This document shows, one piece after another, positions 16,645-36,553 of a DNA stretch of 64,000 bases. The DNA comes from Syntrophomonas sp. DTU019 (GTDB lineage: Bacteria > Bacillota > Syntrophomonadia > Syntrophomonadales > Syntrophomonadaceae). The stretch lies in the NCBI GenBank assembly GCA_913757435.1, contig CAJYDM010000001.1, forward strand, positions 1-64,000, read 5' to 3'. The notes beneath the pieces are model-generated. The model made no database searches. It was not told where the DNA came from and saw only the letters and a program-made list of their open reading frames with translations. How positions within the stretch are numbered: the stretch's first letter is position 1; each line of letters opens with the position of its first letter. The translations under genes were made by a program, and so were the position numbers.

Positions 16645-16982
16645 TAAAAAAAACCTCCTTGATTTGTTGCCCTACCAAGGGAAGCGCCTATCATCTGTTA
16701 CTCCCCTAAGTTGAAGCAATCGAGAAGGTTCGTTCATCCGCATGGGTATAGGGCTAAAATCAGTTTAACTGATTATTCCAAGATAATCAAATACTTGTCG
16801 TATATTATTTTTACAAATTATTTAATAATTATTCAAAAATCCTTATGACAGTTTTATACACCATGCTATCTCGGTAACAACTCGGTGTAATTATGAATAC
16901 ATTAACGGTAGAACTGGCAGATTCATGTTTTATTCCAAAAAAGTGTATACAAATCCAATCTTTAAGTTAGGAGGTAATATTA
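16645..16982. other. AT-rich divergent promoter region
   Basis: About 340 AT-rich bases between the zinc-ribbon gene (minus) and the Cys-rich trio (plus). It should hold both promoters. I tested for sporulation sigma motifs (a TGAATA at about 16894 with a later CAT...TA) but the spacing is wrong, so I cannot name a promoter class. Confidence 0.4.
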
Positions 16983-17636
16983 GTGGCTGAATTCAAAACG
17001 CCGCGTCATGCTATCCCCTGTTCCGCTGATCCTGAATACACCCAATCGGTTAAAGATCATGAAGATTTCTGCTGCCCTCCAGAACCGAGGCCTAATCCAA
17101 AGCCCCAGCGGCACCATAAAAATAAGATCAAGTTTGCTTGCGGGAATGGCTCCGGCCTGTCTCTGCCAGTGTTTGGCGGGGTATTATTATCTGCAACACC
17201 AGGTGCACCGTGCAGTTTCCCGTCCCTGATAGCAGGCAGCGTAAGTCTGGATACGTCTAAATTGGTTGATCCAACTGTAAAGATCGACTTTTCCAGTATT
17301 GTAAATTTTATCATCGACATTAGTGCTTACCAAGCAGGGGTTTTGATTTCCATCGATTTCCACCTTATCAAAATCTGCGATGGCAACAAAGTGCCACTCG
17401 GTACCTGGACTTATCATAAGTCGATCAACGCGGGCGGAGGTCTTCCAGGGGTGCAGTCGAACGGTGGCTTCGGGATTGAAGTCGATTTTAGGGAGCCTTT
17501 TAATTTCTCGTGGTGTGAATGTCAAGAATGCCCGGGCTGCTGCACTTATGTAGTCGAGATCAGCAATGTGAATTCATTTGGTATCGCCTCGGCCTCACTG
17601 ACCAATGTCAGCATCAGCGCCCTGGCTGTAGGTTAA
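16983..17636 (+). CDS. Cys-rich DUF4489-like protein, copy 1
   Basis: A 217-residue protein, first of three tandem paralogues. The N-terminal 45 residues are polar and basic, rich in Pro/His/Lys. The core starts at KIKFACGNGSGLSLPV, continues with VSLDTSKLVDPTVKIDFSSI, then KICDGNKVPLGTWTYHKS, and ends in the Cys cluster WCECQECPGCCTYVVEI. I recall this layout from DUF4489, a family of unknown role in spore-forming Firmicutes. There is no signal peptide. The start is GTG 16983 with GGAGG 8 bases ahead. A spore-coat or surface role is speculation based on family distribution and the beta-rich, Cys-rich sequence. Confidence 0.7.
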   Translation: MAEFKTPRHAIPCSADPEYTQSVKDHEDFCCPPEPRPNPKPQRHHKNKIKFACGNGSGLSLPVFGGVLLSATPGAPCSFPSLIAGSVSLDTSKLVDPTVKIDFSSIVNFIIDISAYQAGVLISIDFHLIKICDGNKVPLGTWTYHKSINAGGGLPGVQSNGGFGIEVDFREPFNFSWCECQECPGCCTYVVEISNVNSFGIASASLTNVSISALAVG

Positions 17637-17688
17637 GCTCCCCGCCTATTTCCTAGAATTTAATTAATATTGGGAGGTAGATACAATT

Positions 17689-18264
17689 ATGTCCAAATTT
17701 AAAGTCTCACATGAAAAAGACCATCATGATAAACACCCGGTCAAACAAGAAGTAGTACTCTCCTGTGGCACCGGCTCTGGAGTGGCCTTACCCTCCAATT
17801 CGGGTGTACCTGTATTGATTGGCGCCCCTCAGTCCGAACTGGTAGTGGGAATCGTTACCCTGGATACCAGGGATATGGAAAAACCATCCGTGAAAATTGA
17901 CTTCTCCAGTGTGGTCAATTTTTTGGCTGAAGTCAACCTGGGCGGGGTCTTTATTTCTCTTCTGTTCACCCTCAAAAAGATTTGCGATGGCGATAAAATC
18001 CCGCTCGGCACCTGGACTTATCAAAAGGCAGTGTCTTTTGGATTCATACAAGGGGCTGTAGAGGATGGCGTACAAGTGAACACCCAGGTCAATGGCGGCG
18101 TTGAGATTGATTTCCGCGAAAGCTTTGGGTTCACCTGGTGCGAATGCCAGGACTGCCCGGACTGCTGCACCTATATTGTAGAGGTGGCCGATTTCCAAAC
18201 CTATAACGTGCAATGTGCCTCCATTACCAATGTCAGCCTCAGTGCACTGGCGGTAAGTTGTTAA
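17689..18264 (+). CDS. Cys-rich DUF4489-like protein, copy 2
   Basis: A 191-residue paralogue of its neighbours with a shorter His/Lys-rich head. It shares LSCGTGSGVALPS, VTLDTRDMEKPSVKIDFSSV, KICDGDKIPLGTWTYQKA, EIDFRESFGF and WCECQDCPDCCTYIVEV, ending in TNVSLSALAVSC. GGGAGG precedes the ATG. It lies 52 bases after copy 1 and 27 bases before copy 3, clearly one operon. Divergence between copies is considerable outside these blocks, so the duplication is old and function has probably diversified. Confidence 0.7.
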   Translation: MSKFKVSHEKDHHDKHPVKQEVVLSCGTGSGVALPSNSGVPVLIGAPQSELVVGIVTLDTRDMEKPSVKIDFSSVVNFLAEVNLGGVFISLLFTLKKICDGDKIPLGTWTYQKAVSFGFIQGAVEDGVQVNTQVNGGVEIDFRESFGFTWCECQDCPDCCTYIVEVADFQTYNVQCASITNVSLSALAVSC

Positions 18265-18291
18265 ATTTTGCTTTTAAAGGAGGTAAAGAAA

Positions 18292-18906
18292 TTGCCCAAA
18301 GTTAAGAAACCCTATTATGCAGAGCCTCTTCAGCCTGACCCGGACTATTCCCATATCAAACCAGATGATGATGCTGAGGACCACAAGAAAAAGATTAAGC
18401 TGGCCTGCGGCAATGCCTCCGGTCTGAGTTTGCCGGTCAGCGGAATTCCCATCTGGCAGGTTGCCGGCATCGGCCCGCCCAGACTGACAGCCGGAACTGT
18501 CACTTTGGACACCTCCAATATGGTTGACCCGGCCGTTAAAATAGATTTTTCTGGAATAATCAACTTTTTGATCAATCAACAGCAGTATGCCAACAGCGGC
18601 CTCTTATTGTCTGTCGACTTCCAATTGAGCAAAGTCTGCGCTGGTGACAGAATCCCCTTAGCTACCTGGAATTATCAGAAATCGGTCCACCTGGATAATT
18701 ATGTCCCTGCTACGGCCCCCGCATTAGCTATCGGCTATGGTCTGCAGGTCGATTTCCGCGAATCGTTTAATTTTTCATGGTGTGAGCGCCAGACCTGCCC
18801 TGCTTGCTGCACTTATGTGGTGGAGATAGTCAATGTAAATTCCAACCAGATCGAGTCAGCGTCGATCACCAATACTAATATCACTGCAATGGCGGTAGGA
18901 TGCTGA
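18292..18906 (+). CDS. Cys-rich DUF4489-like protein, copy 3
   Basis: A 204-residue third paralogue: KIKLACGNASGLSLPVSG, VTLDTSNMVDPAVKIDFSGI, KVCAGDRIPLATWNYQKS, VDFRESFNFSWCERQTCPAC and CTYVVEIVNVNSN. One Cys of the CECQ motif is replaced by Arg here. I use TTG 18292, which has AAAGGAGG 8 bases upstream; a longer in-frame start at 18268 would overlap that site. It is the last gene before a terminator. Confidence 0.7.
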   Translation: MPKVKKPYYAEPLQPDPDYSHIKPDDDAEDHKKKIKLACGNASGLSLPVSGIPIWQVAGIGPPRLTAGTVTLDTSNMVDPAVKIDFSGIINFLINQQQYANSGLLLSVDFQLSKVCAGDRIPLATWNYQKSVHLDNYVPATAPALAIGYGLQVDFRESFNFSWCERQTCPACCTYVVEIVNVNSNQIESASITNTNITAMAVGC

Positions 18907-18934
18907 TGTTTTCCATAATGTTACCGTAAGTAAT

Positions 18935-18960
18935 AAAAGCCTCCTAAAAGGGGGCTTTTA
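18935..18960 (+). terminator. Rho-independent terminator after the Cys-rich trio
   Basis: AAAAGCCTCC pairs with GGGGGCTTTT around a short A-rich loop (one G:T pair), followed by TATAAT. It lies about 30 bases beyond the third gene. Confidence 0.75.
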
Positions 18961-18979
18961 TAATGCCATTATGTCATCT

Positions 18980-19038
18980 GCGGGCGGAGCAGAGCCCCGC
19001 CCCTACTGCGGCGGGCGGAGCAGAGCCCCGCCCCTACT
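18980..19038. repeat. Two tandem copies of a 28-bp GC-rich palindromic repeat
   Basis: The unit starting GCGGGCGGAGCAGAG and ending in CCCCGCCCCTACT occurs at 18980-19007 and 19011-19038, period 31. Each copy can fold (GGGCGG with CCGCCC). On the minus strand it reads GTAGGGGCGGGG..., like REP-type dispersed repeats seen in many environmental bacteria. The second copy overlaps the last codons of the amidase gene. Confidence 0.7.
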
Positions 19039-19726
19039 TTTTCACTACTGCATCCAAAAGATTTAAGGCCACCTGCAGGACAAACCACTTGGAGGCAGCA
19101 TCATCGGGCTCATGTGGGGAGGTTACCAAACCGTTTTGGGCAGCTCTATCCATGATATTGAGTTTCCATTGCTCCACTACTGGATTCTCCACCGGTCTAT
19201 CCACAAAATCGTTTAATCCATCAACTATCGACCGGGCCAGGCGAGCCTGACCTTCACTGCTCTTTAAAATAACCTCCTGTGCCGGGTTGCTGATGAAGCC
19301 GCATTCACAAAGAACAGCCGGCATCATGGTCTCCCGGGTCATGTGCAGGTTCTGTACCCTGACTCCACCGTCTGGCCACCCGGTGGTTTGAACCATCCGG
19401 GCTTGAACCTTTTCCGCTAACTGCTCAGCCTCTCCGCCCGAGGCCTGCACAAATGTACTTATATAATTGGGCCTGGGATTATTAGAAGAATTACAGTGTA
19501 TACTTATGACATAATCGACTTTGGCACCATTGAGCAGGTTGGATCTGGTCATCAGGCTTTTTGAACTGTCATCAGTGCGGGTCATAACGGTCTCGATTCC
19601 CATCCGCTTGAGGAGAAATTCAACCCGCTGAGCTATGGCCAAGTTAACATCTTTCTCCCGGGTTCCGTACGCACCCATTGCACCTGGGTCTTCACCACCG
19701 TGACCGGGATCAATCCCTATTTTCAT
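19034..19726 (-). CDS. N-acetylmuramoyl-L-alanine amidase (Amidase_3)
   Basis: A 230-residue zinc amidase that cuts the amide bond between MurNAc and the stem peptide. Visible zinc and catalytic residues: His in DPGHGGEDPGA near residue 10, Glu in TREKDVNLA, His in ISIHCNSS, and Glu in VLCECGFISNPAQE. I start at ATG 19726 with GGAGGGAGGATAATA ahead; the frame is open for another 71 codons but that extension is neither family-like nor preceded by a ribosome binding site. No signal peptide is evident, as in some sporulation or holin-exported amidases. A C-terminal tail of about 50 residues is unassigned. Confidence 0.87.
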   Translation of the reverse strand: MKIGIDPGHGGEDPGAMGAYGTREKDVNLAIAQRVEFLLKRMGIETVMTRTDDSSKSLMTRSNLLNGAKVDYVISIHCNSSNNPRPNYISTFVQASGGEAEQLAEKVQARMVQTTGWPDGGVRVQNLHMTRETMMPAVLCECGFISNPAQEVILKSSEGQARLARSIVDGLNDFVDRPVENPVVEQWKLNIMDRAAQNGLVTSPHEPDDAASKWFVLQVALNLLDAVVKK

Positions 19727-19928
19727 TATTATCCTCCCTCCTATGCTAGATTCCGTCACTACTAGCATATTCAGGAGCCCTCCTTGACGAACCCAGGCAC
19801 TAAAATAAAGTTGCTGCAACGGCTGAGGTTTCAGCTGATAATAGGTTTCTACAATCCCCTCACAGCTTAAATATACCGAGAAAAAGCCAAGACAGCGGCT
19901 CAATCTCCAGATGAAGCTACAGCTCGAA

Positions 19929-21455
19929 TTATCCGCCAATAAAGCCGGGGCCTGCAGCTATTTTTCCCTTCAGCCGCGATCCGTCCGGAAACCCGTATTT
20001 TAATGCCCCCGATGGGCAGCGATCGATAGCCTTGATTATCTTCTGCGGGGCATCACCGTCTATGTTGACCCAGGGGCGGCGAGCCGGGTTAAAGACGGTT
20101 CCCAGAGTATGGAAACAATTGGTATCATGGGTGCACATGGCCGGATCCCAGTAAATGACGATATCTTCATTCTGGTAGGTCCTGGGGTAATCTTCGGCTG
20201 CCTTATGAGAGCCGTAATGGGGATTGATTTGTATTTGGTAATGCAGGTCGGTCTGCGCCTGGCCCAATTCCCCCTGCAGGGCTGCGGCAAAACTCCGGCC
20301 CAGGGCGCGGGCGGCCTCCAATTGCTCCGGGGTAGGCTTAAGACGCACCCTTAACCCTGGCAGGAGGTGCATACGCAGCATACGCAAGCGGGATTCGACA
20401 TGAGGAACCCCTTCCCCACTCCAGCCGTAGGAGCCAAAAGCAGCGGCGATCATCCCCCCGTGAGTCACCGGGGAAAGGTGGGCCAAAAGCTGCCAAACCG
20501 GTAGAACGGCATCCTTATTCAATGTGGGGGTGCCAATCAAAAGCCCCTGGGCACCCTCCAATTCAGCAACCACCTCTTCAGGGGCCTTTTCCACCAGGTC
20601 GAACCATTTAACGGTTAGGTCACCTTGCTCCAGTATTCCTGCTGCAATGCTCTCACCCAGCATTTTGGTGTACCCGTAGGCACTGGCATAAGCGATCACC
20701 ACTTTTTTATGCAAAGCTGTAGGTGGAACCGCCCATTGGCGGTAAAGTTCGATATATTGACGAGGATTGAACCTCAATACAGGTCCGTGCCCGGGACAGA
20801 TGATGTCAATGTCGACACGCTGCAAACGGTCCATGGCCCTTTCCACATAGCTGCGGAACGGCGCCATGATGCCCTGATAATAGTATTTAAAAGCTGGTAA
20901 TAATAAGTCAGCCTTAATCTCGTCATTGAAGAGTTTATCAGCGGTGAAATGGCTGCCAAAGCAATCCCCGCTGAACAGTATCTTGTCCTCTCTCAGGTAG
21001 GTGAATATATTATCCGGCCAGTGCAAGAGCAGGGCGCTTAGGAAAGTCAGGGTTTTACCCCCCAGATCGATTCTAAAGCCCTTGTGAATGGCCTGGCAGT
21101 CGAAAGGCCGGGCACAGATTTCACTCAGAAACTCCAGAGCGGTGCCACTAGCTACCACAGTCAAATGGGGCATTACATCCAACAGTCTCTCCACGGCGCC
21201 GGAATGGTCAGGTTCGGTATGGTTGATAATCAGGTATTTAATCTGTTCAAGGTCAACGACTTCACGCAGCGAACTGAGGTATTCATCGAAAAATGGTTCT
21301 TTCACAGTATCAATTAAGGCGGCTGACTTGTCACCCTTGACCAGATAAGCGTTATATGTAGTACCTACATCGGTGGTCATAACTATATCGAAATGCCTCA
21401 GCTCCGGATCCTTTACCCCCAGCCAGAACACGCCTTCGGTGATCGGTATGGCCAT
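19929..21455 (-). CDS. Flavodiiron protein (FprA type) fused to a 4Fe-4S ferredoxin domain
   Basis: A 508-residue fusion. Residues 1-250 form a metallo-beta-lactamase-like diiron domain with H79-x-E81-x-D83-H84, H145, D164 and H223, the usual ligands for O2 or NO reduction. Residues 252-400 form an FMN flavodoxin domain (VVIAYASAYGYTKMLGESIA). Residues 430-495 form an extra domain with MCTHDTNCFHTLG and IDRCPSGALKY, which looks like the single-cluster Fer4_19 type. The fused ferredoxin may feed electrons directly to FMN, replacing a separate rubredoxin. Role: oxygen or NO detoxification in an anaerobe, by family knowledge. GGGGG precedes the ATG. Confidence 0.88.
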   Translation of the reverse strand: MAIPITEGVFWLGVKDPELRHFDIVMTTDVGTTYNAYLVKGDKSAALIDTVKEPFFDEYLSSLREVVDLEQIKYLIINHTEPDHSGAVERLLDVMPHLTVVASGTALEFLSEICARPFDCQAIHKGFRIDLGGKTLTFLSALLLHWPDNIFTYLREDKILFSGDCFGSHFTADKLFNDEIKADLLLPAFKYYYQGIMAPFRSYVERAMDRLQRVDIDIICPGHGPVLRFNPRQYIELYRQWAVPPTALHKKVVIAYASAYGYTKMLGESIAAGILEQGDLTVKWFDLVEKAPEEVVAELEGAQGLLIGTPTLNKDAVLPVWQLLAHLSPVTHGGMIAAAFGSYGWSGEGVPHVESRLRMLRMHLLPGLRVRLKPTPEQLEAARALGRSFAAALQGELGQAQTDLHYQIQINPHYGSHKAAEDYPRTYQNEDIVIYWDPAMCTHDTNCFHTLGTVFNPARRPWVNIDGDAPQKIIKAIDRCPSGALKYGFPDGSRLKGKIAAGPGFIGG

Positions 21456-35437: not shown

Positions 35438-36553
35438 TTAAGACTCACCTCCAGAATTCTGCCCGGAACCTTGAGCGCCCTGTTGACCGGAGCCTTGCTG
35501 ATCCTGCCCCGAACCCTGGCCGTTTCGCCCGCCGCTCTTCCCGCCGTTTTTCTGTGTGAGCTGCTTCCTTAAATCCTCCAGGTTCTGTATGGCAATTTCA
35601 GCTTTGATCATCACCAACTGTCTCTGTTGCAGCTCCACCGCACGCTTGACATCGTTAAGTGAGTATTCAGTCTTGGTAAAGGTTTCACGGTTCTGGCCTT
35701 CATCCTTCATCTTTAACATTTCCCAATGGGGGATTAAGGTATCGGCATGTTGTTTAGCCGCTTCCCATTGGGATGTGTTGGCCAGGGCAGCGATTGTCAT
35801 GACCTCGTACTTCACCCGGTAATAAGGCGGAGGCAGTTTGGATTTAAGCGCAGAGGCCATATCCCCGTAGTGACGGTAAAGCTCAATAGCCTCCAGAAGG
35901 CTGCTTTGGGCCTTTTTATCACTTATGCTCATGGTCAAGTCTTCCATGGTTTTTTCGAATCGATCTCTTACTTCAGGGGCTAATCCGGCTTTAATAGCTT
36001 CCGGTTCCAGGCTGTTCCACTGTTGATTGATCTTGCGTATACTCTCTTGCTCTTGGGCCCACCCAGCAGTGCCTTGCTGCTGGCCTGGCAGCTGTTGGCC
36101 TTGCTGCTGCTGGCCCTGCTGCTGCTGCCCTTGCTGTTGTTGACTTTGCTGCTGCTGGCCTTGCTGTTGTTGACCTTGCTGCTGCTGGCCTTGCTGCTGT
36201 TGGCCTTGCTGCTGGCCCTGCTGTTGTTGACCTTGCTGCTGCTGGCCTTGCTGCTGGCCCTGCTGTTGCTGGCCCTGCTGTTGCTGGCCCTGCCGCTGTC
36301 CGGATTCAGATCCGCCCTGTTCCTGGGTCGGCATTTCAATAAAGTTGGTCTTGTTGCCTAATGCCATAATCAGAGCATCCGTTTCTTTTACTATATTGGT
36401 GAAACTTTCCGGTTCCTTAGACTCACTCTGTGTGTTCTGACCCTGGCCTTGAGGCTTTTGTTCCGGTTCATTTTTAGAGCATCCGCTCAATGTAGTGAGT
36501 AATACCAACAGCAGGAGCATAACTGTGTTTTTATGACAACGGTATGCCTTCAT
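35438..36553 (-). CDS. Lipoprotein with a long Gln/Gly repeat tract
   Basis: A 371-residue predicted lipoprotein: signal peptide VMLLLLVLLTTLSGC with the lipid-modified Cys near 25, a polar linker, then about 75 residues of (GQQQ/GQQQQ)n at roughly 85-160. A helical domain follows (about 165-330, including IRKINQQWNSLEPEAIKAGL and PPYYRVKYEVMTIAAL), and a Gly/Gln/Ser-rich tail ends it. I do not recognise the helical domain. It would sit on the outer face of the membrane with a flexible, hydrophilic spacer. The repeat DNA is prone to slippage, so the length may vary between strains. Confidence 0.75.
   Translation of the reverse strand: MKAYRCHKNTVMLLLLVLLTTLSGCSKNEPEQKPQGQGQNTQSESKEPESFTNIVKETDALIMALGNKTNFIEMPTQEQGGSESGQRQGQQQQGQQQQGQQQGQQQQGQQQQGQQQGQQQQGQQQQGQQQQGQQQQSQQQQGQQQQGQQQQGQQLPGQQQGTAGWAQEQESIRKINQQWNSLEPEAIKAGLAPEVRDRFEKTMEDLTMSISDKKAQSSLLEAIELYRHYGDMASALKSKLPPPYYRVKYEVMTIAALANTSQWEAAKQHADTLIPHWEMLKMKDEGQNRETFTKTEYSLNDVKRAVELQQRQLVMIKAEIAIQNLEDLRKQLTQKNGGKSGGRNGQGSGQDQQGSGQQGAQGSGQNSGGES
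36070..36300. repeat. Tandem CTG-rich minisatellite coding for Gln/Gly repeats
   Basis: Units of 12 or 15 bases built on CTTGCTGCTGCTGGC and close variants repeat about 15 times inside the lipoprotein gene. All length changes seen are multiples of 3, so the reading frame is kept. Synonymous variation (CTGTTGTTG versus CTGCTGCTG) shows the array is not perfectly fresh. Confidence 0.85.

Follow-up and report, generated by a model that had tools for sequence, protein, structure and literature searches.

Three genes stand in tandem on the plus strand of the window (the whole stretch of 64,000 nucleotides that was analysed): gene 1 at 16983..17636 (P1; 217 aa, GTG start), gene 2 at 17689..18264 (P2; 191 aa, ATG start) and gene 3 at 18292..18906 (P3; 204 aa). 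The reading frame of gene 3 is open from 18268, and its start is probably TTG 18292 rather than 18268; from this TTG, the intergenic gaps are 52 nt (P1-P2) and 27 nt (P2-P3). The proteins are paralogues with pairwise identities of 52, 54 and 45%, and each gene is preceded by a strong ribosome binding site (AGGAGG at 16969..16974, GGGAGG at 17672..17677 and AGGAGG at 18278..18283). Upstream of gene 1 lies a sigmaK-type promoter (16876..16904, plus strand) composed of AACA (16876-16879), N16 and AATACATTA (16896-16904), and gene 3 is followed on the same strand by a terminator-like hairpin of 13 bp with a short T run (18933..18961; -17.5 kcal/mol, z -4.39), which was equalled by 0 of 200 shuffles. 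A plain terminator scan of the operon region found 2 candidates against a shuffle mean of 2.9, i.e. no excess. P1-P2-P3 form a single operon, as shown by its sole promoter, a strong ribosome binding site for each gene, the short gaps and a terminal hairpin, and the tandem, binding sites and terminator named in the original prediction were all recovered.

Other features were observed around the operon. On its 3' side, the window holds two tandem copies (18982-19037) of a GC-rich 25-bp palindromic element (GGGCGGAGCAGAGCCCCGCCCCTAC), with no further copy elsewhere in the window, followed by a convergent amidase gene on the minus strand (19034-19939) for which the top match was spore CwlD (120 bits, below the cut-off of 221). 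A lipoprotein-like ORF carrying a long GQQQQ repeat lies at 35438-36553 on the minus strand.

All three proteins were assigned to DUF4489 (PF14879) by an HMM check, as had been predicted, with scores of 90.4 (P1), 91.7 (P2) and 89.5 bits (P3) against a cut-off of 27, and each aligned along nearly the entire profile, which was also matched by 46/46 relatives. The common motif blocks proposed for the three DUF4489 paralogues held in part, as gene 2 reads SCGTGSG and LDTR, and gene 3 lacks the second Cys of WCxC because its motif is WCERQTCPACC. Six DUF4489 copies are present in the organism's own Syntrophomonadaceae genome (the three of the operon plus L001, L005 and L006), and the family was carried by 27/63 genomes of the class sample, 11/398 of the phylum sample and 0/14 controls; named carriers were Syntrophomonas, Syntrophomonadaceae genomes and Clostridium hydrogeniformans. 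In a tree, the window's P1 grouped with its orthologues from two other genomes of the genus, as did P2 with its own, and P3 was the sister of the P1 group. Within the literature searched, no paper named DUF4489, PF14879 or two further identifiers; as had been stated beforehand, this is a family without a described function in that literature. Searches of the PDB gave no sequence relatives of DUF4489 (best E about 1). Two other origins were considered and rejected: a plasmid-borne trait, since a plasmid collection gave no match, and a phage structural protein, since no PHROG match was found at E 0.1 and the genes lie among housekeeping genes. Phage baseplate and tail chains do appear in the fold-search listing for the DUF4489 models.

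The promoter of the operon differs from the sigmaK consensus given in PMC5749712 (a/cACa/c N16 CATA N3 TA) at a single position: the -10 begins with A instead of C. When the upstream regions of DUF4489 genes were read, a recurring GTAAC...GAATANNNTA element was seen, the strict GTAAC form of which occurred in 21/49 DUF4489 upstream regions (mean of 0 over 200 Markov shuffles) and in 0/30 spoIVA upstream regions. We then scanned 160 bp upstream for the pattern [AC]AC[AC]-N16-[CA]ATANNNT[AG] at different spacings, and the N16 form was found upstream of 34/50 DUF4489 genes compared to 0-8/50 for other spacings; these 50 regions came from related genomes and included genes internal to operons (two from the window, one from a relative), as well as a truncated copy (L012:3318-3515) of a gene already counted. 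A few genomes were present twice in this set, from which proteins recognised as identical over the last 60 residues had been deleted. The same pattern preceded 6/81 neighbouring genes and 0/106 genes in SpoIVA loci, motif-selected loci being excluded from these controls. The own genome has four DUF4489 units, of which two, the operon and L005, had the N16 spacing (L005 ending in TG), L001 had N17, and the paralogue L006 had no sigmaK-type pattern upstream. This genome encodes SigK (335 bits, cut-off 298.65); YabG, sought as a positive control for sigmaK promoters, was found in none of 63 genomes.

Genome-wide, the enrichment of the strict pattern was modest: it occurred 6 times in the own genome relative to 4 for the reversed control, and 55 times relative to 33 in 12 relatives, so that chance accounts for much of the signal across genomes. 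The own-genome hits lay before the operon, L001, a BclA_C-like gene and murC, with two not associated with a gene. Hits in relatives lay before BclA_C-like orthologues (G011 and G012), a CotJA gene (G018; 43 bits, cut-off 25), NDP-sugar dehydrogenase genes in five genomes, and murC. In one genome (G042), a DUF4489 gene lies <20 kb from a fucosyltransferase-family gene and an NDP-sugar dehydrogenase gene with the same element. Together, promoter pattern, shared regulon and gene company suggest that DUF4489 likely has a role at the spore surface with late, mother-cell timing.

The murC hits correspond to a conserved GTAACCACTT...GCATACTATA-like element 36-45 nt upstream of murC in the own genome and relatives (L064, L100, L102, L103, L108, L123 and L128); among the sites in the 12 relatives, six were assigned by site similarity only, and the downstream ORF was read in the other six and in the own genome. 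The element fits a -10 of sigmaK/sigmaE type and hints at mother-cell expression of murC, which to our knowledge is not a known sigmaK gene.

Three of the proteins encoded by neighbouring genes with the N16 pattern resemble one another and have CBM-like regions; one of them scored 48 bits against NTTRR-F1 (below the cut-off of 70). CBM96/DNRLRE proteins adjoining and opposing DUF4489 genes were observed at L039:3859-4728, L046:5735-6598 and L050:3839-4711, and these neighbour proteins are candidate spore-surface partners of DUF4489. An LRAT-domain gene was seen directly 3' of DUF4489 at L039:5979-6473 (Pfam-checked) and, by resemblance, at L042:5876-6358 and L047:5874-6368; in the own genome, L001 adjoins a similar-looking putative LRAT gene (L007, about 7387). 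The own genome has SpoIVA, which was present in 11/11 DUF4489 genomes. Its co-occurrence was rejected as proof of a spore role because 340/398 sampled genomes also have SpoIVA, making it uninformative; within the class, it was found in 25/27 DUF4489 carriers vs 29/36 others (p 0.28).

AlphaFold models of P1 (36 sequences; pLDDT 80.7, pTM 0.73) and P2 (46 sequences; pLDDT 85.7, pTM 0.80) were all-beta save for one short P1 helix, with low-confidence tails, in line with the beta-rich cores that had been proposed from the sequence. The predicted fold is a jelly roll: Foldseek and VIA-align matches of both models were TNF/C1q-like jelly rolls. Trimer formation is widespread in this fold class. BxpB of Bacillus anthracis (8d02) matched the two models at Z 9.3 (2.8 A, 118 aa) and Z 9.4 (2.9 A, 119 aa), and ExsFA/ExsF chains at Z 8.2-8.8, which raises the prospect of a TNF-like trimeric adaptor that, as BxpB/ExsF, tethers nap or appendage proteins to the spore. 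The own genome offers a possible cargo in the BclA_C-like gene under the same promoter element (L138:2129-2680; Pfam BclA_C 34 bits, below the cut-off of 38, E 3e-8), of which the 184-aa product was seen to be without a collagen region. However, identity to BxpB/ExsFA was 3-7%, neither ExsF nor BxpB was matched up to E 10 when PDB sequences were searched with a profile, and TNF folds, Pgp3, the PLTL and BC2L-C lectins and birnavirus VP2 scored level with BxpB. As such unrelated jelly rolls tie with BxpB, this widespread fold does not reveal a function; moreover, six divergent copies per genome fit a structural role better, and we consider an adaptor rather unlikely. The sugar-binding lectins PLTL and BC2L-C among the fold matches could alternatively point to a carbohydrate-binding lectin or enzyme of the vegetative envelope. 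This is highly improbable given the sigmaK-type promoter, the Cys-rich core and the N termini: P1-P3 have no hydrophobic N-terminal segment, consistent with the predicted lack of signal peptides.

Cysteines are distributed differently among the three proteins. P1 has 11, with Cys 13, 30 and 31 in its N-terminal tail and none near the C terminus; P2 and P3 have tails free of Cys and end in Cys191 and Cys204, respectively. Among relatives, core Cys26, 151 and 159 (P2 numbering) were present in 46/46, and Cys99, 153, 156 and 160 in 37-42 of 46; in the P2 model, the C-terminal Cys cluster spans the last part of strand 137-153, the turn and the first part of strand 159-172. The tail preceding Cys26 (16-96 residues long across DUF4489 relatives) contained Cys in 39/46 proteins, reaching 11 in Clostridium hydrogeniformans, and a tail CC was found in 18/46 relative to 6.1 expected when each tail was shuffled. 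The P1 Cys pattern, including the tail CC, was kept in both P1 orthologues, and the P2 orthologue in G012 had one tail Cys. This layout is consistent with disulfide coupling. The original prediction of a cross-linked, coat-like assembly is supported in part by the sigmaK-type promoter and regulon, the jelly-roll models and a Cys layout fitting disulfides, from which we infer the disulfide itself. The microcompartment-like layer proposed along with it was not borne out: DUF4489 was the sole Pfam match of P1-P3, and a microcompartment shell was rejected as the BMC domain profile was not matched.

A published parallel to this layout is Ena1A/B/C (Enas, PF13157, formerly DUF3992). According to PMC8619143, Ena1B has a 15-residue tail in which Cys10/Cys11 bond to Cys109/Cys24 of other subunits, and PMC12921279 describes tail Cys in Ena1A/B and anchoring of Ena1C through Cys142. 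The operon resembles Ena1 in being a small paralogue cluster with late sporulation timing (here promoter-based), in the jelly-roll core predicted in P1 and P2, and in the CC of the P1 tail. It might accordingly be a functional ena1ABC analogue that builds fibres, with P1 as the tail-linked subunit and P2/P3, through their C-terminal Cys, as acceptor, cap or anchor. In contrast to Ena1, DUF4489 tails are of 16 residues or more and, in the window operon, tail Cys are confined to P1, although the tail Cys of the G012 P2 orthologue does not follow this division; in addition, most relatives carry one or two DUF4489 copies rather than three. The Enas profile was matched by 0/46 DUF4489 proteins at E 0.1, as was that of DUF4183 (PF13799) by 0/46; DUF4183 represents F-ENA, described in PMC11952670 as a beta-rich spore appendage subunit that is present in Clostridia too. 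By profile, DUF4489 is not a member of the Enas, DUF4183 or microcompartment families. Ena1B (7A02) was not among the 50 VIA-align matches listed, which excludes nothing. Enas were found in 0/63 class genomes, in a search with no positive control, and DUF4183 in 2/63, a near absence that counts towards a separate fibre-forming family. We regard fibres of this kind as less likely than not.

Somewhat better placed, if still short of even odds, is a two-dimensional lattice, in which the proteins would be cross-linked into a coat or exosporium sheet rather than fibres. The model here is CsxA of Clostridium sporogenes, reported in PMC7333573 as a Cys-rich self-assembling sheet protein, whose authors propose that other Cys-rich spore proteins act likewise; DUF4489 is similar in being Cys-rich and, on our reading, a spore-surface protein of Clostridia. 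Clostridium hydrogeniformans has five DUF4489 genes interleaved with those of two Cys-rich proteins that belong to no known family, an arrangement that favours a lattice, but the combination of tail Cys and jelly roll is nearer to Ena fibres. The two interleaved proteins (L053:4007-4801 and 2-322) are mutually related, and L053:4007-4801, considered as a known coat protein, gave no Pfam, NCBIfam or PDB match.

Overall, we favour the reading that the operon is a late, mother-cell, sigmaK-dependent unit whose jelly-roll products assemble on the spore surface and are joined by disulfides, with a probability of about 0.72. P1-P3 would be transcribed under sigmaK in the mother cell at a late stage of sporulation, and the small jelly-roll products, apparently free of signal peptides, would assemble, probably as trimers or higher polymers, on the outside of the developing spore, in its coat, exosporium or surface fibres. 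Disulfides would then join N-terminal tail Cys of one subunit to core or C-terminal Cys of another. Since P1 has tail Cys and no C-terminal Cys, whereas P2/P3 show the reverse, a mixed assembly of P1 with P2/P3 in which labour is divided is likely. By analogy with known spore-surface systems, we infer polymerisation and disulfide coupling; the location on the spore, the type of polymer (lattice or fibre) and the heteromers are further parts of the proposal. More speculatively, and with the odds against it, DUF4489 may be an additional class of proteins that build endospore appendages or lattices and that reached the Ena1 solution separately, namely a jelly-roll subunit whose N-terminal connector bears Cys and fastens neighbours through disulfides, with P1 as tail donor and the C-terminal Cys of P2/P3 as acceptors.

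These results give a testable role to a family without a described function, and they bear on the little-known spore surfaces of syntrophic fatty-acid oxidisers, which are central to methane formation; known appendage families were nearly absent in the class sample. If the appendage or lattice reading is true, DUF4489 would be a builder in syntrophic Clostridia lacking most known ENA families. If disulfide self-assembly is true, the family would represent a further independent case of Cys-locked, enzyme-free assembly on spores, and might be used to obtain robust fibres or sheets of protein.
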